Below are positions 306-12,007 of a DNA stretch of 20,382 nt, one piece after another (position 1 is the stretch's first letter; each line of letters begins with the position of its first letter). The DNA lies in IMG/VR virus record IMGVR_UViG_3300017744_001653, positions 1-20,382 of that record. One strand, written 5' to 3'. This DNA comes from a virus. Under the pieces are notes generated by a model that was not told the DNA's origin, did not search any database, and saw only the letters and a list, made by a program, of their open reading frames with translations. The position numbers and the translations under genes are program-made.

Positions 306-695
306 TTATTTAGTGTCTGACACCTTTTCTTCAGGATTATCTTTTTTGTCATAGTCTCTATAAAACTTCACGATTGATAATGTATCTCTTAAATATCGTT
401 TGATTTCTGCCATATTCATAGACAAGTTTTCATATTCTTTGCTAGTTAAAGAGTAGTATGCAACAGCAGGTGCAGAGCCATTTTCATAATCTACTAGATA
501 ATCTTTCATTAATTCAGGAGTTAATATTACCCAGTCTATATCTGTAAGTGCCACCTCATAGGGGAGAGGAGGATGGTACATTGGAACTGGCTCTGCAATC
601 GTTACTACCTCTACAGGTTTAGTTGTAGGTAGCATAGAACAATTAGCCAAGACTATTAGTATGATTGTGTTGCTTATTAATTTTAAACTATTCAT
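306..695 (-). CDS. Putative o-spanin (Rz1-like outer-membrane lipoprotein)
   Basis: A 129-residue protein from the ATG at 695; an in-frame TTG lies one codon earlier. The N-terminus is a lipoprotein signal: a lysine near the start, a hydrophobic stretch (IILIVL) and then L-A-N-C with the acceptor cysteine at residue 19. Asn just before the cysteine is less usual than Gly, Ala or Ser. A short proline-containing segment (HPPLPY) follows, then a mostly polar domain. The gene starts eight bases before the end of the coiled-coil membrane protein upstream, the arrangement of Rz/Rz1 spanin pairs, in which inner- and outer-membrane subunits together disrupt the outer membrane at lysis. It is longer than classical Rz1. 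The spanin call rests on context and topology rather than sequence identity. Confidence 0.65.
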   Translation of the reverse strand: MNSLKLISNTIILIVLANCSMLPTTKPVEVVTIAEPVPMYHPPLPYEVALTDIDWVILTPELMKDYLVDYENGSAPAVAYYSLTSKEYENLSMNMAEIKRYLRDTLSIVKFYRDYDKKDNPEEKVSDTK

Positions 696-1077
696 CAAAC
701 TGATTTGGGTCTGTTAAGGCTATTATTTCTTCTTTGACTTTTTTTGTACCCTTGTTCACAATGTTTTCTATTAACTTAGGTTTCTTCAATGCTAAATTAT
801 CTAAATCATGTTTTGCAAAGGTTGTTCTTAATTTGTTTACTTCTTTTACTGCTTCCTGTTTTTCTTTTTCTATTGCTTGTATTTGCTTTTGTGCCTGTTC
901 CTGATTCGCAAGGTAAGTTTTTATAGATGCATTTTGTTCTGCTATAGATTTTTCTAAGGCTATTTGATTGCCTTTGAGTGTTGATATGTTGTCTTGAAGT
1001 CTATCAATATACCAAGCACTACCTGATATTGAGACTAACAATAAACCACCTAGTATTATTGATAACTTGAATCCCAT
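688..1077 (-). CDS. Putative i-spanin (Rz-like inner-membrane coiled-coil protein)
   Basis: A 129-residue protein with an N-terminal transmembrane helix (residues about 4-23, LSIILGGLLLVSISGSAWY) and almost no cytoplasmic part. A long, charged coiled coil follows (about 25-95, rich in Glu, Lys and Gln). A conserved-looking C-terminal segment comes next, containing FAKHDLDNLALKKPKLIENI. Similar F-x-x-HDL...KP.LIE segments occur, as I recall, in Rz-like proteins of many marine phages. The topology is that of an i-spanin, anchored in the inner membrane with a periplasmic coil that binds the o-spanin. The downstream lipoprotein gene overlaps its 3' end by eight bases, supporting a spanin pair. 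No strong Shine-Dalgarno is seen before the ATG, so coupling to the cyclase gene ending 20 bases upstream is possible. Confidence 0.7.
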   Translation of the reverse strand: MGFKLSIILGGLLLVSISGSAWYIDRLQDNISTLKGNQIALEKSIAEQNASIKTYLANQEQAQKQIQAIEKEKQEAVKEVNKLRTTFAKHDLDNLALKKPKLIENIVNKGTKKVKEEIIALTDPNQFDE

Positions 1078-1097: not shown

Positions 1098-2915
1098 TTA
1101 CCTTTTATACAATTTTCTGATTTCTTCTTTTATAAAAGGAGCATATATTACTACAGGTTCTTCTTTACCTTTTACCTTAATTTCATCAATACGCTGACAA
1201 GCTGTGTTTGCTTCATTGTAAGTATATTCAGATATAAGTATTGGCGTGTCATAGGTTCTTGTTTGTACTTCTAATCTAGCACCAAGATTTACAGCATCTC
1301 CAACAACTGAATAATCAAACCTGAGTTCAGAACCCATATTACCTACAATACAAGTTCCTGTGTTTACCCCAGTTCCTATAACGACTGGTGGTAAATCATA
1401 ACCATCTTCTTTTAGTTGTAAATTAAGCTGTTCTGTAAGTAATTCTATTTCTATAGCAGTTTTTACACCCATTTCAGCATGATTATTACAAGGCAAGGGT
1501 GCGTTCCAAAAAGCCATAATACAATCGCCCATATACTTATCAATAGTTCCACCATTTTTAAGAATTACCTTAGTCATGCGATCTAAAAACAAATTAATCA
1601 ATTCTACTAAGCCTTCAGGGTCATCATTTTTCATGTAGGCTTCTGATATAGGCGTAAAACCTACAATATCTGCAAACATAAACGTCATTTCTTTTCTATC
1701 TCCACCTAACTTCATCAATGAAGGGTCTTTTACAATCATATCTACCATATCAGGCGATATATAAGTACCAAACTGTCCTTTTATTTGTTCTCTTAGCTTC
1801 CATTGTTCTCTAAAGCGTAAATAGAATGCTATTGCTCCAGTAATGAACTGTGCGATTAGTGTCCATGTAACATCTATTAATAAACCCCTGTGGATAAGTG
1901 CATATCCTGTATAAGCTGTTAATAACATCACAAATAAAGCTGTTATAAGTCCATAGGTTATGCCCAAAGCGTTTAATAGAATCCATATAAGGCTTACTGA
2001 GACTACAAATATTAGTATTTCTAAAGCTAATGCCCAATCAGGTATATAAGGACTGTCTTGTATTAAGATTGATTCTGATAGAGCTGCTTGTATCTTATGT
2101 GGTTCTAATAATCCTACAGGAGTAGCTATTTGTGGCATCACACCATTAGCAGTAACGCCAACAAAAACAAACTTTCCTGCAACATTCATTTCTTTTAAGT
2201 CTGTTTGAGGTGTATCTACCCAACTTATCCACTTACGCCCTAAACTATCTGTTTTAACTGGTGGTATTCCTCTAATTGATATTTCTTCTATACCATTATC
2301 ATTAGTTTTTATAATGTAAGTTTTTACACCAAACAATGCTTTATAGATTTGTGTTCCAAAAGCAGGAATCCAGTCGTTATCAGGTGTGCTTACAAGTAAT
2401 GGGATTCTGCGAACAAGTTGGTCAACTTCGGTGGGAGCAATGGCTAGACCCTGCAGTGTATTATCTTTTAGAGTGTTCAGGTTTTCCTTAACTCCCATAG
2501 AGACTATAGCACGAACATCATTACCTTTGACAACAGTTCCTGCAGGTTTTGGATAATTTCCACTATTATCTTCAAACATAGCTAAAACAGATGGTGCATA
2601 ACCTAATGTTGTAGCAAAAACTTCATCACCACCCATTCTGTCTGCTTGTGGAAAAGATATAACCCAACCTACTCCAATTGCACCTTCATTGATAAGGTCA
2701 ACTTGTATTTGAGCTAGTGTTCTTCTTGGAAATGGATAGCCACCCTGATCTTCTACATCTTCTTCTGTAATATTTAGAATTACAAAGTTACCTGATGGTT
2801 CTTGTTGTTTAACTAACCCATCAAAGGTTCTTAGTTTTAGTATTTCAGTTGGTGTGCTTTGAAATATAAGTGGGAGTGATAATAGTATTACTATCGGAAA
2901 CAGAAATCTTTTCAT
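1098..2915 (-). CDS. CHASE2-domain class III adenylate cyclase, membrane-bound
   Basis: A 605-residue protein from ATG at 2915. An upstream in-frame TTG at 2945 lies inside the terminator and is unlikely to be used. Domain order: an N-terminal membrane helix (about 3-20); an extracytoplasmic CHASE2-like sensor (about 25-290, with the typical FVFVG segment near its end); three transmembrane helices (about 295-316, 318-341, 345-367); a short linker; and a class III cyclase domain (about 405-590). The catalytic set is complete: metal-binding Asp416 (FADIVGF) and Asp464 (MGD), adenine-selecting Lys460 and Asp534 (RFDYSVVGDAVN), ribose-binding Asn543 and transition-state Arg547. This predicts conversion of ATP to cAMP under control of an extracytoplasmic signal. 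A cyclase of this bacterial type between phage tail and lysis genes is very unusual. No clear Shine-Dalgarno or promoter is seen; expression may depend on read-through of the terminator just upstream. Confidence 0.92.
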   Translation of the reverse strand: MKRFLFPIVILLSLPLIFQSTPTEILKLRTFDGLVKQQEPSGNFVILNITEEDVEDQGGYPFPRRTLAQIQVDLINEGAIGVGWVISFPQADRMGGDEVFATTLGYAPSVLAMFEDNSGNYPKPAGTVVKGNDVRAIVSMGVKENLNTLKDNTLQGLAIAPTEVDQLVRRIPLLVSTPDNDWIPAFGTQIYKALFGVKTYIIKTNDNGIEEISIRGIPPVKTDSLGRKWISWVDTPQTDLKEMNVAGKFVFVGVTANGVMPQIATPVGLLEPHKIQAALSESILIQDSPYIPDWALALEILIFVVSVSLIWILLNALGITYGLITALFVMLLTAYTGYALIHRGLLIDVTWTLIAQFITGAIAFYLRFREQWKLREQIKGQFGTYISPDMVDMIVKDPSLMKLGGDRKEMTFMFADIVGFTPISEAYMKNDDPEGLVELINLFLDRMTKVILKNGGTIDKYMGDCIMAFWNAPLPCNNHAEMGVKTAIEIELLTEQLNLQLKEDGYDLPPVVIGTGVNTGTCIVGNMGSELRFDYSVVGDAVNLGARLEVQTRTYDTPILISEYTYNEANTACQRIDEIKVKGKEEPVVIYAPFIKEEIRKLYKR

Positions 2916-2931
2916 CACAAAATAATAGCAT

Positions 2932-2955
2932 AAAAAAAGGGTCAATTAAGACCCT
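2932..2955 (-). terminator. Intrinsic (Rho-independent) terminator after the small moron-like gene
   Basis: On the minus strand a six-base-pair stem, AGGGTC with GACCCT around a six-base loop TTAATT (2955-2938), is followed directly by a run of T residues (2937-2932). The plus strand also has T residues after the stem (2959-2964), so it could act in both directions. It lies between the stop of the gene at 2995 and the cyclase ATG at 2915, so it should end the transcript of the former and limit read-through into the latter. The stem is short, so efficiency may be moderate. Confidence 0.72.
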
Positions 2956-2994: not shown

Positions 2995-3354
2995 TTAACT
3001 AATAGTGTTTTCAAAAGTAGCCATAAGACTTCCATCTTGAAAATAAATTTTATGATCTCCATTGTACATAAATCCATTGATATCAAAGTTATTTATAACT
3101 TCTGTATCTCCCCAATTTTCATAAATTTTATTACCATTACGACCATTACCCATTGGCACTAAAAAGTAAGTGACATCATCATGAACTAAAACATCACCTT
3201 CTGATGTACTTCTGTGACCATCATCAGACCATGCTTCGTCTATATTTTGTGTTTTTCTGTATGCATATTGAAAAGACTCTGTATCAATAGTAGCTACAAG
3301 TTTGTAAGGCTTTTCGTTATTTGCGAATTCAGTTGCTTGGTATACTTTTATCAT
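2995..3354 (-). CDS. Hypothetical protein with GHRSTSEGDV motif, moron-like
   Basis: A 119-residue soluble protein without a signal peptide or membrane segment. It begins MIKVYQATEF and has a central motif D-G-H-R-S-T-S-E-G-D-V-L-V (residues about 45-57). An arginine-serine-rich motif followed by GDV recalls small phage and plasmid proteins of the YodL-like type, but I cannot assign a function. An AAGGAA Shine-Dalgarno lies about seven bases before the ATG. The gene is singular in this window in having its own sigma70-like promoter (3401-3429) and its own intrinsic terminator (2932-2955), so it can be expressed independently of the long late transcript. That arrangement is typical of morons, lysogenic-conversion genes or early-expressed inserts. 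Confidence 0.7.
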   Translation of the reverse strand: MIKVYQATEFANNEKPYKLVATIDTESFQYAYRKTQNIDEAWSDDGHRSTSEGDVLVHDDVTYFLVPMGNGRNGNKIYENWGDTEVINNFDINGFMYNGDHKIYFQDGSLMATFENTIS

Positions 3355-3457: not shown

Positions 3458-4576
3458 TTATTCGCTTTGCGTAATAGTTATCACAGAGTCTCCACCACCA
3501 TTTATCTTAACAACATTAGAAACACCATCTTGGATGATAATTAAAGTATAAGCATCATTGCCATCAAGGTCTAATCTCACAGAATCATTTACACTTCTTC
3601 TTATACTAATCACATCACCAGCTATTAAGGTTGTTATTTGTGTTTCTGTATCTTGACCTATTCTTGTACCTTTAATATCTATACCACCTGTATCAGCTAA
3701 AACGTCTTCATCTTTACTAATAGCTAATGAGTCTAATACATTTAGCAAATCTTCAAGAAAGTTTGTATCAAGGTAGTTAATATCTAATTCTGTAAACTCT
3801 AACTCATCTTCTCCAAGAAAGTCCTCATCAAGATAATCTATGTCTAGGTCATTAAAATCTAAAATGTTTTCTTTTGAGTTTTGTGAAACTTCTTCTGTGA
3901 TATCTATTTCTTTTTTTGGTGGTGTGACAATTAACATATTATCAATAATGTCTAATGTTAAATCTAATATGACTGGTTTACTTGGTTTAGATTCAAAAAC
4001 ACTTACTGTAGTTGCTTGATAAGGTTTATTTAATAAAACAGTACCCATAGCAGTAACAACTTCTATTTCACCACTAGACAAGCCTAGAGCATCAGGCAAA
4101 AGTATTATTAGTGATCTCCCCAACTCATCAACTGTAGCTGTAAAATCTGTTCCACGAATAGCAATATTTGCTGTTGGTGTCTTTAGCTTTATGTTTTGTT
4201 TATCTATTCTGTTTAAATTGCCTGTGATAAATCTTGCTGTTCCTAAACCAAATGTAAGAGCCATCTTTGATTTAGATGGGTCAGGGTCATAGATGTATTC
4301 ATCTATTAACAGTTGTGAATGTTCTGTAAGTTTTACAACAGAATCATCAAGAAATGTAATAGCCATTCTGCCATTAGATGTAATAGCTTCATCATTGCTT
4401 TGTATAGCAAATTCTAGGGTAGCATCTAGTGGCTTGTCTCTTACTATTTTTGCTGAACCATTAAGTTCAGATATCCCACCAATATCAGCAGCTAGTGCTT
4501 GTTCCTTGATCGTTTTGGATAATACAAACAGTGGAAGCAGCATTCCCACCAATACTAATAACTTTAAGCCAGTCAT
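3458..4576 (-). CDS. Secreted FecR-domain protein with acidic repeats and curlin-like C-terminus
   Basis: A 372-residue protein. Residues 1-30 look like a signal peptide (MTGLKLLVLVGMLLPLFVLS, then an alanine-containing cleavage region). Residues about 42-150 match a FecR domain (PF04773): I-V-R-D near 44, the 'SNGRMAITFLDDS' strand (67-79), a Y-x-Y-D-P segment, and the signature TPTANIAIRGTDF (133-145). An acidic region (about 236-280) contains two copies of LDI(D/N)YLDxxFL. The last 30 residues (IIIQDGVSNVV, then ITITQSE at the end) have the alternating Ile/Val, Q-x-G-x-x-N and terminal Q pattern of curlin repeats. The gene starts 92 bases inside the upstream curlin-like gene. FecR proteins act in the periplasm as sensors or binding partners; here a link to curli assembly or to the CHASE2 cyclase downstream is plausible but inferred. 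No Shine-Dalgarno is evident at the chosen ATG. Confidence 0.85.
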   Translation of the reverse strand: MTGLKLLVLVGMLLPLFVLSKTIKEQALAADIGGISELNGSAKIVRDKPLDATLEFAIQSNDEAITSNGRMAITFLDDSVVKLTEHSQLLIDEYIYDPDPSKSKMALTFGLGTARFITGNLNRIDKQNIKLKTPTANIAIRGTDFTATVDELGRSLIILLPDALGLSSGEIEVVTAMGTVLLNKPYQATTVSVFESKPSKPVILDLTLDIIDNMLIVTPPKKEIDITEEVSQNSKENILDFNDLDIDYLDEDFLGEDELEFTELDINYLDTNFLEDLLNVLDSLAISKDEDVLADTGGIDIKGTRIGQDTETQITTLIAGDVISIRRSVNDSVRLDLDGNDAYTLIIIQDGVSNVVKINGGGDSVITITQSE

Positions 4577-5216
4577 TGTCTTGTGTACTCAGTTGTTGAA
4601 TATTAAAAGTTCTTTGTCCACCTGTATGATCTAACCAAAAGTAACCTCCTGCTGAAGAAGTAACACCTGTACCTGTATAGTTTACTGTATTATCACTTCC
4701 GTCAATATCCATGTAGTTTGTTGCACCATCAATATTTATGTTAGATGTAATAGTGTTATTAGAACCTTGTATTATCCAGTCTAAATCTAGTGTAGCTGCT
4801 AATGCAGTAGTTCCTTGATTTAAAGTAAATGTATTACTAGAGCCTGTAACAGCTATGTTCTGATTTGAACTGTCAGCACCAAAAGTATTACTTGGGTCAA
4901 CTTGTATAGTAAAGACATTACTATTACCAGTGAAGTTGTATAAAGCAGTGAAGCTATCTGCCCATATATCACCTAGAAACTTGTTAGTGTTTCCAATCAT
5001 GTTAATGTCAATAGTCATGGTTGTGCCATCAATATCAAAAGGTGTAAGACTACCAGCAGTAGAATTAAGACCACCTATGATATTAGATATACCAAGTTGC
5101 TCTATATCAAGATTTAATGTTGTACCACTTTGGTCTAAATATATTTCGTTATCAGCCGCGAATATTGGCAATGCAATCAGCATCACACTCAGGCTTATTA
5201 ATTTTAGTTTCTTCAT
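4485..5216 (-). CDS. Curlin-like secreted protein (candidate CsgA/CsgB-type fibre subunit)
   Basis: From ATG at 5216 the protein has 243 residues. It opens with a classical Sec signal peptide (MKKLKLISLSVMLIALPIFA, cleavage predicted after FAA near residue 21). The rest is low-complexity, rich in Asn, Gly, Ser, Thr and Ile, with many G-x-x-N turns (GTTLN, GISN, GNTN, GNSN, GSSN, GSNN, GATN, GSDN) and Q-x-G units such as IYLDQSG and FTLNQG. Stacked strand-turn repeats with Gln and Asn in register are what curlin subunits show. The spacing is less regular than in CsgA, so a CsgB-like or divergent subunit is likely. The GGAG before 5216 supports this start over one ten codons upstream. It directly follows the CsgG gene, overlapping it by 65 bases, so it is the natural candidate cargo for the pore. 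Two Cys residues near the C-terminus are unusual for curlins. Confidence 0.68.
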   Translation of the reverse strand: MKKLKLISLSVMLIALPIFAADNEIYLDQSGTTLNLDIEQLGISNIIGGLNSTAGSLTPFDIDGTTMTIDINMIGNTNKFLGDIWADSFTALYNFTGNSNVFTIQVDPSNTFGADSSNQNIAVTGSSNTFTLNQGTTALAATLDLDWIIQGSNNTITSNINIDGATNYMDIDGSDNTVNYTGTGVTSSAGGYFWLDHTGGQRTFNIQQLSTQDNDWLKVISIGGNAASTVCIIQNDQGTSTSC

Positions 5217-6021
5217 GTTTCCAAAAACTCCTGTCGTAACCGACATTAATTAATTCTAAAACTGCACCCTCAATGGCTTTCATCAAGGCTATAGTTGTAG
5301 ACTCATTGCGAGAATTTCCTAATTCAATTTCAACAAGTTCTGTACCCATTTCTATGAATCTAAAAACATCTTCTGACTTACCATAACTAAATATGGTTTT
5401 TTGGCTTAATACTTCTATAAGTATTTCACCAGTTGCAACTGATACCATGCGAAGGGAAACAGTAATATTATCTTCTCTGTATTGAATACTAGTTCCTATT
5501 CCTAAATACCTAGCACCAACGCCACCAGTTGACAAGTTACTATCATAACTTATTACAGCACCTTCTAACAAGACACCTGCAAATAGCAGTGGTGGTACAT
5601 TCTTATCTTCACCTTCTTTTGCAAATTGTTCTCTTGCAGACCTTATCAACTGTCTTTCTTTAGTTAGATTATCTAAACCCACCCTTTCTACCACCCTAAA
5701 GAACTCACCATTACTTGCATGTTTTAATGCTCTAATTAATAAAGTGTGTGGTGCTTGGGTTACAGCAGTAGAAAACAAAGCAAACTCACTGTTGCTTTTA
5801 CGCTGTCCTGTTTGATCTGTAAACGCTGAAGGGTAAACTGCTACAACAGGTAGCACTGAAGGTTTTTTTACATTAGCAAGTTCTTCTGAATTTAACTCTG
5901 CAATATTTACTATATCCTTAGACTTGTATCTAAGTTCTACAGTATCTTCAAACTGGTTAAAAATTGAACAACTAGAAAGTAAAAGAACCGATAGGTATTG
6001 TAATTTCTGTAACTGTGCCAT
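5152..6021 (-). CDS. csgG: CsgG-like outer-membrane curli secretion channel (lipoprotein)
   Basis: A 289-residue lipoprotein with lipobox L-S-S-C (Cys18). The mature region aligns with E. coli CsgG from memory over nearly its full length: D-x-T-G-Q-x-K (69-75), FSTAV (83-87), ALK (98-100), ERVGLDNL (112-119), ERQLIRSA (122-129), the hallmark SNLSTGGVGARYLGIG (161-176), ATGEIL (196-201), VFRFIE (219-224), IALMKAIE (244-251) and LINVGYDRSFW (257-267). CsgG forms a nonameric pore in the outer membrane that exports unfolded curli subunits. The eyelet loop differs from E. coli: Phe56 is kept (F83), but Asn55 is Leu, and the Tyr51 area is changed with an extra residue. The length is similar to bacterial CsgG, and there is a short cysteine-containing C-terminal tail. 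It overlaps the CsgF-like gene upstream by 50 bases and the curlin-like gene downstream by 65. Confidence 0.96.
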   Translation of the reverse strand: MAQLQKLQYLSVLLLSSCSIFNQFEDTVELRYKSKDIVNIAELNSEELANVKKPSVLPVVAVYPSAFTDQTGQRKSNSEFALFSTAVTQAPHTLLIRALKHASNGEFFRVVERVGLDNLTKERQLIRSAREQFAKEGEDKNVPPLLFAGVLLEGAVISYDSNLSTGGVGARYLGIGTSIQYREDNITVSLRMVSVATGEILIEVLSQKTIFSYGKSEDVFRFIEMGTELVEIELGNSRNESTTIALMKAIEGAVLELINVGYDRSFWKHEETKINKPECDADCIANIRG

Positions 6022-6514
6022 CTGCTTCGGTTATTTTTAAAGTTAAATATGTTCCATCAGATGAATACTCTATAGTATTTCCTTCTAAGGATATAGTTCC
6101 ACTTGACTGTGGTGTTTCACCAAATAAATTAGCGATTAGCTGTCTGCTAAGTTCTGCATATACTCTACTTTCAAAATTTCTAATAAATCTTTGCACTGTA
6201 GAATTTTCTTTATCTCTTTCTGCTTCTTCTTTAGCAGCTTTAATCTCATCTTTTATTTTTTGTTTTCTATTAAATTCTTGGTTTTCAATGGTCAGATAAT
6301 GACTAGATGTATTAATCCCACTAAAACTAGGTGACTTAAACTTATGAACTATTTGGTCTGCTTTAAGATTTTGTACAAATATGCCTATAATTAAAGCCAA
6401 TCCAAAAGCCACTACAAACCATGTTATTCTAGTTTTTTCTAGTTCATCTTTCCTACGCTTTAGTTCAGCGTTACTAGGTCTACCTCTTTTCTTCTTAATC
6501 TTTTCTTTGGTCAT
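5972..6514 (-). CDS. csgF: CsgF-like curli assembly factor with basic, membrane-anchored N-terminus
   Basis: From ATG at 6514 the protein has 180 residues; an in-frame TTG six codons upstream is less likely. Residues 54-180 resemble CsgF. The segment HKFKSPSFSG (57-66) matches the N-terminal F-x-N-P-x-F-x-G motif with which CsgF binds inside the CsgG pore. The C-terminal part (LTLKITEADGTVTEITIPI) matches the CsgF strand pattern of a ligand-like domain ending in T-x-I-x-V. In CsgF the signal peptide precedes this motif directly. Here a hydrophobic helix (32-48) is preceded by about 30 charged residues with KKKRGRPSNAELKRRK, which resembles an AT-hook core. The helix may be an uncleaved anchor or an unusual signal. 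A long charged helical region (about 80-118) replaces the middle of E. coli CsgF. The gene overlaps its upstream neighbour by 20 bases and CsgG by 50. Confidence 0.8.
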   Translation of the reverse strand: MTKEKIKKKRGRPSNAELKRRKDELEKTRITWFVVAFGLALIIGIFVQNLKADQIVHKFKSPSFSGINTSSHYLTIENQEFNRKQKIKDEIKAAKEEAERDKENSTVQRFIRNFESRVYAELSRQLIANLFGETPQSSGTISLEGNTIEYSSDGTYLTLKITEADGTVTEITIPIGSFTF

Positions 6515-6845
6515 CTCTATCTGCCTTAGCAATTTTACTGCTATCTATAAGTTGAGGTACGCCAAGAATAGTTTTAATTAAAGTGTCTTGTCTTATAATT
6601 TCATTGTCTAAACTACGCACCCTATCAATTAATGCTACTAGTATTCCATGTTGTGAGTCAAGTTTTGTGCCTAGTCGTTCTTCTATAGCTGCTATTTGTG
6701 ATTCTACTTTTTCATCAACATTATCAAGTTTAGTTTCCATGCCATCTACAATACGCATAATTAGTTTGTATATAAACCAACCCAAGCCAACAGAAGCTGC
6801 TATTGGAAAACCAACCTCTTGAATTACTTTTATTGCCATATCCAT
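6495..6845 (-). CDS. Holin-like membrane protein with coiled coil
   Basis: A 116-residue protein with one transmembrane helix near the N-terminus (about 11-31, GFPIAASVGLGWFIYKLIM). A long charged coiled-coil region follows (about 34-100, with heptad-like EE, KV and DS spacing). This topology, short periplasmic N-terminus, helix, cytoplasmic coil, is seen in small phage membrane proteins annotated as holins or BhlA/UviB-like proteins, and the opening E-V-G-F-P-I is common among them as I recall. It stands at the junction of the tail-fibre genes and the curli cassette, with its stop overlapping the CsgF-like start. It could be the phage holin, or a membrane protein of the curli cassette. No Shine-Dalgarno is evident; the upstream gene ends two bases before it, suggesting translational coupling. 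Confidence 0.6.
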   Translation of the reverse strand: MDMAIKVIQEVGFPIAASVGLGWFIYKLIMRIVDGMETKLDNVDEKVESQIAAIEERLGTKLDSQHGILVALIDRVRSLDNEIIRQDTLIKTILGVPQLIDSSKIAKADRDDQRKD

Positions 6846-6847
6846 AA

Positions 6848-7042
6848 TTATTCAGAGTAAGACCTTATTTCATCAGACGTTATAATATGTTGCTCCATTT
6901 TGCTTTGTGTAGCATCAGTGTCAACATTGCCATCTGCATCTAAAACGCATGGCACTTCAAATATAGCTCCATCTGATGTTCTTGTAGCTATATAAAAATT
7001 AATAAAATTATCGCTTTCTCGTTGTACTGTTTCATATTCCAT
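6848..7042 (-). CDS. Small hypothetical protein, 64 aa
   Basis: A 64-residue acidic, soluble protein with no signal peptide or membrane segment (starts MEYETVQRE, ends DEIRSYSE). The ATG shares one base with the TAA of the adhesin-like gene upstream (TAATG), so translation is probably coupled. A DADGNVDTDAT segment in the middle resembles an exposed, possibly cation-binding loop, but it is too short to claim an EF-hand. Its position directly after the receptor-binding region suggests a fibre chaperone or small virion protein. I do not recognise the family. Confidence 0.6.
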   Translation of the reverse strand: MEYETVQRESDNFINFYIATRTSDGAIFEVPCVLDADGNVDTDATQSKMEQHIITSDEIRSYSE

Positions 7043-7629
7043 TATTTAAAACCTAAAGTAACAGGAGATGATGTCGGACTAGAAAAAACACCTGCTGCTG
7101 TTGAACTATCAGCCATAGTCCAAATTCTAGTGCTTCCTACCTGCTGAAAAGTTAGACTACTTCTTGTACGAGTTGCATTTGGTGTGCCACTTGTATTTGA
7201 CTGATTGTAATAAATATCAACTGTAGTCCACCCTGCGTTTCCTGTAGGTGTTCCAGTTGTATCAGAAATATAAAACTGGGTTGCATTATTATTTACAGCG
7301 TACCATTGCCAACTTGGATTAGTGCTATATAAATCACAAGTTGCATCTGACACAGAGCCAAAAGCTGTAGAGCCAACATTACCATAACCCTGAAATGATT
7401 GACCAAAAATTGTAGTTGCTGCATTAGTGACTGTAACAATCCAATCATAATAAGATGCACCATAAAAGTTAGACATAGATATTGCACCTGAAGATACACC
7501 TGCAAGACTTCTTAAATCTGTTTCACCCATAGATGATGTAGCAGTTGCTGATCTCCCTAATTCAACATTAATTGACCTGTCAGTTGTAGTGCCACCAATG
7601 GACATAGTTCCACTAGATGCTAGAGTCAT
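7042..7629 (-). CDS. Small tail-associated adhesin-like protein
   Basis: A 195-residue protein, rich in Ser, Thr, Gly and Asn and almost free of Lys. The first 60 residues contain the pattern GTMSIGG...INVELGRS...DLRSLAG...GAISMSNFYGAS. As I recall, this pattern (…ISLSDLYG) is common at the N-terminus of phage tail appendage or virion proteins from marine and other environments. The C-terminal part (about 65-195) looks like a beta-rich domain with aromatic residues (W, Y), as expected for a receptor- or glycan-binding module. It starts 17 bases inside the megaprotein gene, so it is translated from the same message. Likely a short fibre, tip or adhesin; the exact role is inference. Confidence 0.65.
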   Translation of the reverse strand: MTLASSGTMSIGGTTTDRSINVELGRSATATSSMGETDLRSLAGVSSGAISMSNFYGASYYDWIVTVTNAATTIFGQSFQGYGNVGSTAFGSVSDATCDLYSTNPSWQWYAVNNNATQFYISDTTGTPTGNAGWTTVDIYYNQSNTSGTPNATRTRSSLTFQQVGSTRIWTMADSSTAAGVFSSPTSSPVTLGFK

Positions 7630-10600
7630 TATCTAACCTAACCTTTAATGCATCTATTTGCTTTTGTTGGTCTTTAACAGTTTCAATTAAATATCCAACT
7701 AAGTTGCCATATGCTACTGACTTAGTACCCATTTCATCATCTGCAGTCATTACAAGTTCAGGTGCTATTTCTTCTATTTCTTGTGCAATAACACCACTAC
7801 TTTTAACACTATCTTTAATAAAGCTAACACCACGCATTTGTAATGCTTTTTTACTGTCTAGTGTTTGTATGTTTGTTTTTAATCTTTTGTCTGAAAAGGC
7901 TGTTACGTTGCCACTACTTGTTATTTCACCTGAAGATATAGTTCCTATGTTGCTCATATTACGAGAACTATCTATAACAGTCGTTCCTGCATTTACAGTT
8001 CCAATTTTTAATGATCTACATATTGGTGCAGCACTTTGTATAACAATTCCATAATCACCACTATCAGAACCATAATAATAAGCTGCACCATCAACTGCTG
8101 ATATAAGATTTTTACCATTATGACCTTTGTAATCTATTGATGCTGTTGTAGAACTTGAACCAAATTCAGTTCCTTTTACTGCACCTGAACTTGTTATTGC
8201 ACCTGATGATATAGTTCCAACTGTAATATTTGGACTACCTGATAACCCTGTTGCAGTAATACCAAGTGCGTTTATTTGTGCTTGTGTTTGGTCTGCTGTA
8301 GCACCACTTTCTATGCCATCTAATTTTGAACCATCTGCTGAAATATCTCTACCATCAACAGTTCCTGTTACTGTCATATTTCCTGATAAAGCTATGCTTG
8401 TTAAACCTGTTAGTGCAGTATCAAGATTAAGAGTGACAGCACCTGACGTGCCACCACCATTAAGGTTAGTACCTGCACCGACTGAAGTAATGTCTCCAGT
8501 TCCACCACCACCGACAGCAGAACCATTAAAGTATAAAGAACCACTTACGTTATATAGTTTGTTAGTTGTAGTGCTTGGTGTTTGTGATGGTAAGGCTAAA
8601 GCATCTGCTGTAACCTCTCCAGTGAAGGTTGCGTTCTGTGATGAGTCAAATGTTAGAGCTAAAGCACCATCTGCATTAATCTTGAATGTGCCACTTGCTC
8701 CACCATCTGCAGATAGGGTTGTGCCACCAACAGCATCATAAACCAAGCCAACAACTTGCGTATTTCCTGAACCTGCCTGTATTCTAAAACCACCACTACC
8801 TGTTGAACTTCTTAGTATTGCATCTGCTTGTGTAGTATCGCTTGATATTCCAGTAACTTTACCAATTATTAAATCAGGTTGAGTTCCTGTAGCTTCAAAA
8901 TTACCAGCTACAACAAAATCTCCATCAATAGCAGCTCCTTCATTAAGAGTTAGTAAACCAATACCACCAACTTCTGAATAAGTTAAAACATCATCTAAAG
9001 GCTCGTTATTTAATGTAATAACACTAGCATCTAAAGTACCTGTAACAGTGGCGTTAGTCACATTTAATGAAGTAGCTGTAACTGAGCCAGTTATTGTGGC
9101 ACTTGTTGCAGTTAATGCTCCACCACTTGTCACAATAAAAGCACCTGAACCTAAATTAATAGATGACGAAGAACCATTAATTGCAATACCTGAATTGTTA
9201 ATAGTTACATCACCACCACTAACAGTCACATTGGCTGCATTTAAAGTACCTGTATCTATATCATTAGCACTTATAGAACCAAAGACACCTGAATCTGAAG
9301 TTATAGTACCTGCTGTGATTCTGTCTGCATCTATACTACGTGCTATTACCTTTGCACCTGCTATCGTGCCATCTACAACTAAATCGCCTGTAGTGAAATT
9401 ACTGATCTCTACAAAAGAACCACCACTTCCTGATGTCCCTGAATATTTATAGGCTTTTGATACTTTTGGACTAGCACTGGTGTTGACCATAATTAAAACA
9501 TCATCATCAAAAGGTAATCTTCCATGTGCTGTGTTGAATGCTGAATCTGAAAGAGCAGTAGTTGTGTTACCCTCTACATGAAAATAACCTGAAAAATTAG
9601 GTATAACAATGTCTGTAGCTTCTACCTTTGTAAAAGAACCAGCAGCCTGACTAGATGCACTAGATACTTTATCAAAAAAAGACACAGCTTTAACTTTAAA
9701 ATAATATGTAGTTGAATCTGAAAGACCATCATCAATACCAAAAGATACCTTTTGTGTAGCACTTGGAACACCTGCTATCGTTCTTACAAGATTAGTACCA
9801 TCATTGGGTGTAAACCCTGAACTTGTAGCTCTATAAATCTTAATATCCCTTAAATCAGTGTTACTTGGATTTACCCAAGACAAACCTATAGATAATGGTT
9901 TACCTGTAGTAGCTGATAAAGAAGTAGGAGCAGATGGTGTTGCTATACCTGTTCCTGAACTAGTATTTATATTAACTTCACTTGTATTAGCACTAAAAAC
10001 ATTATTAGCTGAAAAATGTCTAGCTACTATGTAATAAACTGAATTAGCTTTTACATTAGGTATGATTTCTTTAGTTTTACCTTTACCTGCAATCAATGAA
10101 CCAATGTAAGTACCTGAAGATGTGCCATAAAGTATTTCAGTACCTTGTATTAAATCATCAGGGTTGTTTGTCCACTGAACTTGTAAATCATAACCAGTGT
10201 TAATTAAAGTTGCTGATACTGATAAACCTGTTGGTGCTGTTACGCTAAAACTACCTGTAGAAACGCTTGTGCCTTCGTCTATGGGACTGGTATAACTACT
10301 TGAAGCAAATGCATATACAGAAGAATCAATCTCTTTAAGGGCAAGTCTTGTAGCAAGAACTGGAACATCATCTGATTCTATAACTTCTAAATTTGTGCTT
10401 AAAACTTCAAATGTTTTGTTTGTATAACCCAGTCTTTCGTTTGTAAGGTAAACCCAATCAAATGGTTGTAGTTGCATATAAGCAATATTGCAAAGAACTG
10501 AAAGACTGACTTCTTTTCTAGTATGCAATAAAGCTGTTCTTTGTAACCTTTGTGCCATTGTAGTTGTATCTGTAAATGGCAACTGTATTTCTAAAGATTT

Positions 10601-12007
10601 TCTATAATTTGCTGAAGATTCTCCAGTTGGGGTGTCGTTACTTAAAAAAGTGCTATCTGTGTAAACAGGTGAATCGGTAGCTATATAATTATTATTAGCA
10701 TCTACATATACAGCTTTTACAGTATTAAAAGACTCTCCACTACTTTGTTTTGTAGCTATAGATATCGGTGCTAATAAATTATCGTCTGTGATTGTCATAT
10801 CAGGCGTAACAGAAGCACCTGCAAACATTACAAACTTACCATCTATATAAGATAACTTACCTGCACAAGAACTTAGCAATCCTTCTATGACATCACTACC
10901 ACTAGCAGACATATTTGTTATGCCATTTGCTGTATAGAGTTCTTCTGTGAATGTTAGAGTTACACCATCAGCTATAGTTTGTGCTGATGATAAAGTAATT
11001 ACTAAACCTCTTCTTCTAACAACCTTAACTGTTCCTGATATACCTGTACCTGTGACTGTTTGACCAACATCTATAAGTGTCAATGTTGATGATGTGTCTA
11101 CTGTTACAGTCGTTGAACTTGATATAGCACCATTGACTGTAGCTGTTCCGATGGTGTTACCACTATCACAAGTATTGGCTGCTGATGAAAAACCACCTAA
11201 AGCTGTTGTGTCTAAGACTTCGCTAGATGTCGCTTTTAATCCATAAGTAGTGTCAGTTATATAATCCCTTACACATAGAGCAGGATTATCAGACCATGCA
11301 GTAGATGATGTTCTAGGGTCATAAACTTTCTTACCTTTTACAACAAAAGCCATAGGTGGAATACCACCACCAAATGCTTCAGAATCTACAACCATTTCTA
11401 TCAACATATAAGACATGCCAATAAACTTGTCTGAAGATGTTAAAGATGTGTTATTTACTACAGTTGAATTAGCTGTTGTTTGTGAGCCATCTACAAAAAC
11501 ATATCTAAGCAAAGAACTTTGTACGCCAAATTTATTTTCATTATCAGCATTAACAAATTTACTATTTGTTGCATATTGGAATCCACCACTTGAAACAGTA
11601 GTTAAAATCTCATCATTAATAAGTACATCTTCAAGACCTTCTACTTCATGTCCTGCCAAAACAACTATCATAGATAGCTTGTAGTTATCAGTTCCTGAGG
11701 TTTCTATATGAGTTATTGTTCCACCGACTCTAGCTTTACCATATATTATCTGTCTTGGTGCAGTGGCTGTTCTTGATGCTATTTTATTACCGAAGTTTTC
11801 CGTAGCAGTAGCTTTGATGCCTTTTGACATCAATCCACCGACTAAAGTTGATATAGCTGATAAAGCAGCCATTTCCATTGCTGTTACACCAAATAAAGTG
11901 GCTGCTGCACCACCGACACCTGCTGTTCCGAACACAAAAATTGCACCTGACATAACAGCAAATGTCACTACAAATATTGTTACTGCTGCTTTTACTGCTT
12001 TAGCCAT
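7613..12007 (-). CDS. Tail-tip / central fibre megaprotein with fibronectin III repeats and S74 autoprocessing domain
   Basis: At 1464 residues this is the largest gene in the window. The N-terminus (about 1-60) is hydrophobic, Ala/Gly-rich and resembles lambda-J and GTA-g15-type tail tip proteins. Residues about 60-330 carry the tail-tip region (APRQIIYGKARVGG, DPRTSSTAWSDNPALCVRDY). Two fibronectin type III-like domains follow (about 590-690, starting TAPTGLSVSA; and 695-790, starting SAPTSLSATTG). A long region of Ile/Val-Thr-Gly strands (about 895-1350, e.g. ADRITAGTIT and DGRDISADGSKLDGIESGAT) is typical of triple beta-helix fibres. The C-terminus (1372-1464) is a peptidase S74 intramolecular chaperone with S-D-K-R-L-K at Ser1372, where autoproteolysis is expected after trimerisation, and a final coiled coil. 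It joins baseplate and receptor-binding roles in one chain. A GGAGAG lies before the ATG, which overlaps the DUF6950 gene by eight bases. Confidence 0.9.
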   Translation of the reverse strand: MAKAVKAAVTIFVVTFAVMSGAIFVFGTAGVGGAAATLFGVTAMEMAALSAISTLVGGLMSKGIKATATENFGNKIASRTATAPRQIIYGKARVGGTITHIETSGTDNYKLSMIVVLAGHEVEGLEDVLINDEILTTVSSGGFQYATNSKFVNADNENKFGVQSSLLRYVFVDGSQTTANSTVVNNTSLTSSDKFIGMSYMLIEMVVDSEAFGGGIPPMAFVVKGKKVYDPRTSSTAWSDNPALCVRDYITDTTYGLKATSSEVLDTTALGGFSSAANTCDSGNTIGTATVNGAISSSTTVTVDTSSTLTLIDVGQTVTGTGISGTVKVVRRRGLVITLSSAQTIADGVTLTFTEELYTANGITNMSASGSDVIEGLLSSCAGKLSYIDGKFVMFAGASVTPDMTITDDNLLAPISIATKQSSGESFNTVKAVYVDANNNYIATDSPVYTDSTFLSNDTPTGESSANYRKSLEIQLPFTDTTTMAQRLQRTALLHTRKEVSLSVLCNIAYMQLQPFDWVYLTNERLGYTNKTFEVLSTNLEVIESDDVPVLATRLALKEIDSSVYAFASSSYTSPIDEGTSVSTGSFSVTAPTGLSVSATLINTGYDLQVQWTNNPDDLIQGTEILYGTSSGTYIGSLIAGKGKTKEIIPNVKANSVYYIVARHFSANNVFSANTSEVNINTSSGTGIATPSAPTSLSATTGKPLSIGLSWVNPSNTDLRDIKIYRATSSGFTPNDGTNLVRTIAGVPSATQKVSFGIDDGLSDSTTYYFKVKAVSFFDKVSSASSQAAGSFTKVEATDIVIPNFSGYFHVEGNTTTALSDSAFNTAHGRLPFDDDVLIMVNTSASPKVSKAYKYSGTSGSGGSFVEISNFTTGDLVVDGTIAGAKVIARSIDADRITAGTITSDSGVFGSISANDIDTGTLNAANVTVSGGDVTINNSGIAINGSSSSINLGSGAFIVTSGGALTATSATITGSVTATSLNVTNATVTGTLDASVITLNNEPLDDVLTYSEVGGIGLLTLNEGAAIDGDFVVAGNFEATGTQPDLIIGKVTGISSDTTQADAILRSSTGSGGFRIQAGSGNTQVVGLVYDAVGGTTLSADGGASGTFKINADGALALTFDSSQNATFTGEVTADALALPSQTPSTTTNKLYNVSGSLYFNGSAVGGGGTGDITSVGAGTNLNGGGTSGAVTLNLDTALTGLTSIALSGNMTVTGTVDGRDISADGSKLDGIESGATADQTQAQINALGITATGLSGSPNITVGTISSGAITSSGAVKGTEFGSSSTTASIDYKGHNGKNLISAVDGAAYYYGSDSGDYGIVIQSAAPICRSLKIGTVNAGTTVIDSSRNMSNIGTISSGEITSSGNVTAFSDKRLKTNIQTLDSKKALQMRGVSFIKDSVKSSGVIAQEIEEIAPELVMTADDEMGTKSVAYGNLVGYLIETVKDQQKQIDALKVRLDNDSSI

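Follow-up and report, generated by a model that had tools for sequence, protein, structure and literature searches.

The FecR-domain protein in the curli module of a marine phage carries a C-terminal tail whose sequence resembles the C-termini of curlins beyond chance, a specific resemblance that may reflect homology and whose firm part, in comparison with canonical curlins, is limited to about the last ten residues. It was found in IMG/VR virus record IMGVR_UViG_3300017744_001653, of which we analysed the whole stretch of 20,382 bases (hereafter "the window"), which also holds siphovirus-like tail genes. The module itself is already known: the set CsgF-CsgG-curlin-FecR-CHASE2 cyclase appears in Wittmers et al. 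2022 (PMC9599517), where the FecR protein was read as an iron regulator, in part already in Zaragoza-Solas et al. 2020 (PMC7029224) and, for Melnitz, in Buchholz et al. 2022 (PMC9004378). The curlin-type tail is a new feature of one of its components; the text of Wittmers et al. 2022 mentions neither "C-terminal" nor nucleation nor CsgB and leaves the tail undescribed, and no description of it was found in the literature searched. The reading that we favour, at a probability of about 0.4, is a periplasmic adaptor, exported by Sec, that couples curlin to the CHASE2 cyclase.

Protein architecture and gene neighbourhood

The initial annotation had placed the open reading frame (ORF) exactly (Table 1). 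The encoded protein is a member of the FecR domain family PF04773: the profile search proposed with that annotation matched residues 66–151 above the curated cut-off (E 2.8e-9, 37.7 bits versus 24), and the model of the folded domain has the periplasmic fold of the FecR/PupR anti-sigma proteins of cell-surface signalling, matching the periplasmic domain of PupR (6ovk, Z 14.8 over 135 residues) and the anti-sigma regulator 4m0n (Z 13.6 over 137 residues). The sole strongly hydrophobic segment of the 372-residue protein begins at residue 1 (19-residue mean 2.24, and at most 1.48 past residue 30), and the signal peptides of its relatives have PALA, HSLA or PAHA at the matching place; the sequence supports an export signal, and a dedication to curli is supported as well. 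Within the linker, acidic residues (D/E, n = 29) far outnumber basic ones (K/R, n = 4). The duplicated acidic motif LDI(D/N)YLDxxFL that had been reported between the FecR domain and the tail is present beyond shuffles, its two copies aligning locally with a score of 53 where 2,000 shuffles peak at 43, and the key L and D positions of the second copy are kept as far as HTVC008M and Melnitz.

Table 1. Features of the window, with the evidence for each
Feature	Position	Strand	Evidence or remark
FecR-domain protein with curlin-type tail	3458..4576	-	ORF, 372 aa, ATG start, ~600 IMG/VR relatives
Putative signal peptide, residues 1-29	4490..4576	-	sequence inference, cleavage likely after ALA
Folded FecR domain, residues 30-206	3959..4489	-	AlphaFold pLDDT mostly 84-92
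Acidic, mostly disordered linker, residues 207-300	3677..3958	-	pLDDT mostly 37-55
Acidic motif copy 1, LDIDYLDEDFL, residues 240-259	3800..3859	-	internal alignment
Acidic motif copy 2, LDINYLDTNFL, residues 260-278	3743..3799	-	internal alignment
C-terminal tail, residues 301-372 (72 residues)	3461..3676	-	conservation in curli-locus FecRs only; curlin profile similarity
QDGVSN, minimal curlin repeat core QxGxxN	3515..3532	-	direct sequence
Terminal curlin-type half repeat GGDSVITITQ	3467..3496	-	profile and matrix scores; Q370 invariant
Curlin-like fibre subunit	4485..5246	-	BLASTP; ATG likelier at 5216
CsgG, outer-membrane curli pore	5152..6021	-	PF03783 1.6e-47
CsgF-like protein	5972..6532	-	PF10614 8.5e-17
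CHASE2-adenylate cyclase	1098..2945	-	PF05226 2.7e-23, PF00211 9e-17
Small 119-aa ORF, at second-curlin place of other phages	2995..3354	-	no Pfam family; 3 sequences only

On the same strand, the genes for the CsgF-like protein, CsgG and the curlin-like subunit lie upstream of the FecR gene, and the small ORF and the CHASE2 cyclase lie downstream. The window thus holds adjacent CsgG, CsgF and curlin genes, as a curli/T8SS module should, the curlin being assigned by homology: itself without a Pfam match, the curlin-like protein aligns by BLASTP with a Melnitz protein that passes Curlin_rpt (E 1e-17) and with a bacterial curlin (E 5e-13). The cyclase has the catalytic motifs FADIVGFT, DKYMGD and GDAVNLGAR. 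The curlin ORF and the FecR ORF share 92 bases (4485–4576) in different frames, and translational coupling is possible. Just downstream of the cyclase is an overlapping spanin pair (306–698 and 688–1077, minus strand; phrog_812 1.6e-12 and phrog_739 2.3e-13), which puts the curli module beside lysis genes in this type of phage; the inner spanin is present in 52 of 79 window-type loci. Upstream of csgF, a small membrane and coiled-coil protein (6495–6845, minus strand) has relatives in 131 loci, including 91 of the 111 other curli-FecR loci, and is perhaps the gene known elsewhere as a histidine kinase; it showed no kinase domain.

Similarity of the tail to curlin C-termini

The protein terminates in ...YTLIIIQDGVSNVVKINGGGDSVITITQSE, with a tail of the form QDGVSN...SVITITQSE, and E. 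coli CsgB in ...VVQRQSQMAIRVTQR; the Q-D-G-V-S-N and terminal I-T-I-T-Q previously read in the last residues are indeed there, and the end of CsgB is alike. CsgB, the minor curlin and nucleator, closes on a degenerate half repeat I-x-V-T-Q-x and is reported to meet CsgF and nucleate fibres, but it is made of curlin repeats throughout, whereas the window protein has about 1.5 repeats after its FecR domain and acidic linker, namely one QxGxxN and one terminal half repeat in place of the several tandem repeats of a PF07012 curlin. Across 66 tails, with identity to the window down to 23%, Q370 is unchanged, and Y343, Q349, I366 and I368 are also conserved. The QxGxxN-type motif taken alone says little, because it is confined to the window-type clade of FecR tails and because the published curlin-repeat expression, which matches the protein once (at 343), also matches 591 of 2,834 unrelated ORFs and by chance gives about 0.24 matches per protein of such length.

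Pfam Curlin_rpt (PF07012) gave no match in the whole protein or in the isolated tail at E up to 10, so that the curlin-profile search suggested for the isolated C-terminus came back empty, and none of the curlin families of Pfam and NCBIfam matches the FecR protein. Profiles of the tail itself gave a different picture. Against the first curlins of phages the tail profile scored 25.8, where 100 column shuffles gave 11.0 ± 2.1 (maximum 18.0) and 44 control windows at most 18.6, and the alignment runs over 44 columns in a C-terminus-to-C-terminus register. Second curlins scored 24.6 (shuffles 10.6 ± 2.2, maximum 20.1), and the only controls near that score (up to 23.9) were windows from the N-terminus of CsgF, aligned to the N-terminus of the curlin in the way expected of two signal peptides. 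With 19 independent canonical bacterial curlin ends, E. coli CsgA and CsgB included, the score was 14.9 (shuffles 6.0 ± 1.1, maximum 9.2; controls at most 9.4), the match sitting at the very C-terminus, in the last ten columns. When a matrix was built from canonical curlin C-termini alone, the window end scored 4.9, which was equalled by one of 1,104 unrelated ORF ends with Gln at most four residues from the stop. The terminal pattern was defined as two hydrophobic alternations followed by Gln no more than two residues from the stop. It marks most distinct FecR ends (65 of 70) and second curlins (23 of 26) and over half of the first curlins (23 of 37), compared with 20 of 1,685 other bacterial ORF ends, and, with one extra residue permitted, it is present in 11 of 18 repeat-bearing proteins from canonical loci; as the phage sequences are mutually related, sequence counts are not independent events. 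The proposal of a curlin-type C-terminus, to be abandoned if alignments lacked curlin similarity, is borne out by alignments that beat shuffles and controls.

Searched alone among unrelated ORFs, the tail profile recovered second curlins weakly (best E 0.0023). Two other signals were set aside: a kernel-chain pattern, whose chain was 3 long in the window and at least 3 in 3 of 2,834 unrelated ORFs, was designed post hoc and misses most true curlins, and a match of the tail profile to designed Pizza beta-propellers (E 2.3e-8) comes from adding up identical repeats, with no single stretch that passes.

Structure models of the tail

The AlphaFold model of the isolated tail (pLDDT 81.5, pTM 0.66) has strands every ~10–11 residues, as in half a curlin repeat; its last strand is unassigned, and residues 364–370 are a strand in the full-length model. 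The nearest solved structures of the isolated tail are generic beta sheets, including retinol-binding halves, OspA and LptA, with Z at most 6.1, and no curlin-type solenoid was recognised among these structural matches. Foldseek of the tail against the PDB and viral models gave no match at E ≤0.001, and no curlin structure stood among the matches listed. The models thus bear in both directions on the initial annotation, which would have been contradicted by a fold unrelated to a beta solenoid: the regular spacing of the strands speaks for it, and the generic beta sheets that are nearest to the tail speak against it.

Distribution and phylogeny

Relatives of the FecR protein were confirmed in 594, 21 and 305 IMG/VR stretches in three scans, possibly overlapping, and include those of HTVC008M and Melnitz. 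The order csgF-csgG-curlin-FecR-(curlin)-cyclase is near-fixed over 263 loci, and a cyclase is present in all 87 curli-FecR loci whose sequence extends 4 kb or more downstream. Inspection of the FecR proteins of other csgG-containing phages, as had been recommended, found the tail in curli-locus FecRs, and it is kept only there; because their alignment to the model stops at about residue 215, FecRs outside curli loci lack it. The T8SS/curli FecRs of pelagiphages (HTVC008M AGE60351, Melnitz QZI95052) are the same gene in the same operon order, at ~35% identity over 92% of the length, but unlike those phages the window is siphovirus-like, has no second curlin and has QxGxxN in its tail. The second curlin of HTVC008M (L083:8025-9347) has a PA14 domain (PF07691, 2.7e-6) ahead of its curlin repeats (PF07012, 5.2e-8), which might give the fibre a carbohydrate-binding head.

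The same operon, flanked by ordinary bacterial sequence, occurs on two MAG contigs of freshwater Alphaproteobacteria (loci L107 and L108, at 5000–11100 of each), where it is a chromosomal curli-FecR-CHASE2 operon of Caulobacteraceae with a curlin-tailed FecR. Among 385 alphaproteobacterial genomes, the tail was found in the L107 genome only and CsgF above cut-off in six; the five other csgF loci have neither this FecR type nor a cyclase by the models used. FecRs outside curli loci also adjoin cyclases (within 6 kb in 26 of 71 loci), and because of this, and because those five canonical csgF loci have neither, the cyclase appears to go with FecR and the tail with curli. FecR-CHASE2 clusters have been described in Campylobacterota (PMC9239204) and Burkholderia (PMC5192318); there and in SAR11 a FecR-domain gene adjoins a CHASE2 cyclase or kinase as in the window, but without curli genes or a curlin-type tail. 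In Pelagibacteraceae genomes (L120, L124, L140 and similar), a short FecR-domain protein of ~191 aa lies at most ~1.3 kb from an adenylate cyclase ORF recognised by the phage cyclase model. The 1.5-kb record OR851715.1, which bears the label of a Salmonella phage, has a CsgG gene and is likely host DNA.

In the FecR tree, the curli FecRs form one clade (100/98) that is not nested among the cyclase-linked FecRs, and the window type groups with L107 and L108 (99/92), apart from HTVC008M and Melnitz. This sister position hints at a viral acquisition separate from that of the pelagimyophage type. The second curlin is absent in 72 of 72 loci of the window-type lineage whose FecR has QxGxxN, and nearly all pelagimyophage-type loci, without QxGxxN, carry one, in some cases a short one that the first model overlooked; L105, L107 and L108 are exceptions. 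The most curlin-like tail is that of the window type, a lineage without a second curlin, but the correlation comes close to one split in the phylogeny and is no more than suggestive.

Possible roles of the protein

As a periplasmic adaptor, the protein would have its FecR domain partner the periplasmic CHASE2 domain, and its tail would pair edge-to-edge with the curlin subunit or fill the curlin-end site on CsgF/CsgG; the cyclase would thereby receive a signal of curlin amount or secretion state, which would appear as cAMP in the infected cell. In the window clade, which has no second curlin gene, the tail may also replace the minor subunit. We infer an adaptor that reports the state of curlin as the simplest joint reading of the tail and its neighbours, and the presence of a CHASE2 cyclase beside FecR in nearly every locus speaks for sensing no less than for nucleation. 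The adaptor is weakened because the tree keeps the curli FecRs outside the cyclase-linked ones, because about ten columns of the tail match are firm and because no solenoid was recognised in the tail; moreover, gene adjacency can arise from co-transcription. The initial annotation had instead proposed a periplasmic or surface nucleator or tether for the curlin-like subunit. In such a role, the tail would be exposed at the surface, dock to CsgF as the last repeat of CsgB may do, and template or anchor the fibre, with the FecR domain as periplasmic anchor. We consider this possible though on the unlikely side: the protein end resembles CsgB R5, which is implicated in binding CsgF (PMC10192328), the QxGxxN lineages lack a second curlin, which almost all pelagimyophage-type loci have, and the FecR domain is like the cell-surface anchoring domain of an antifreeze/adhesin protein (5ix9, Z 7.3, 22% identity, 72 residues), but the tail would have to cross CsgG while a folded domain stays behind, its model is without a solenoid, and lineages that do have a second curlin still keep the tail.

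Convergence, with the tail as a beta module of other origin and only a superficial likeness of its last strand to curlin ends, is rather improbable; the shortness of the similarity, the generic nearest folds and the want of a curlin family match would all suit it, but the tail is exclusive to curli loci, its terminal Gln is invariant and the C-terminal register is specific against two separate curlin sets. Still less likely is a periplasmic gate or client mimic, in which the curlin-like end fills the CsgG vestibule and controls an otherwise ungated pore: phage modules lack CsgE (PMC9599517) and the exported domain has a long flexible linker, yet alphaproteobacterial curli generally lack CsgE too (PMC3521004) and the canonical loci examined have no tailed FecR. 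The classical iron-citrate regulator of the module annotation by Wittmers et al. 2022 has the FecR domain alone in its favour and is highly improbable. Unlike in FecR/PupR proteins, a signal peptide stands in place of the cytoplasmic anti-sigma domain and transmembrane helix, and neither an anti-sigma Pfam domain nor a helix-grade hydrophobic stretch was found in the protein after it; no sigma factor or TonB receptor lies within the 20-kb fragment, the neighbours being curli genes, the CHASE2 cyclase, spanins and tail genes. We rejected it on this architecture, in agreement with the earlier view that this is no classical iron-signalling FecR.

Significance for phage curli

Phage curli modules are widespread in the ocean and unexplained, and their FecR has been taken for an iron regulator. 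A curlin-type end that is exclusive to curli loci places the FecR protein in the fibre pathway; its probable contact is with the fibre machinery, not with iron. Pairing with CHASE2 would suggest a route by which ligands reach a sensor domain that has few known signals. More speculatively, and with considerable doubt on our part, phages and some freshwater Alphaproteobacteria may have a self-monitoring curli system, in which the tail senses or seeds the fibre and its state is passed to the CHASE2 adenylate cyclase; if true, this would give CHASE2 a specific ligand path and tie a phage-made amyloid to the cAMP of the infected cell.
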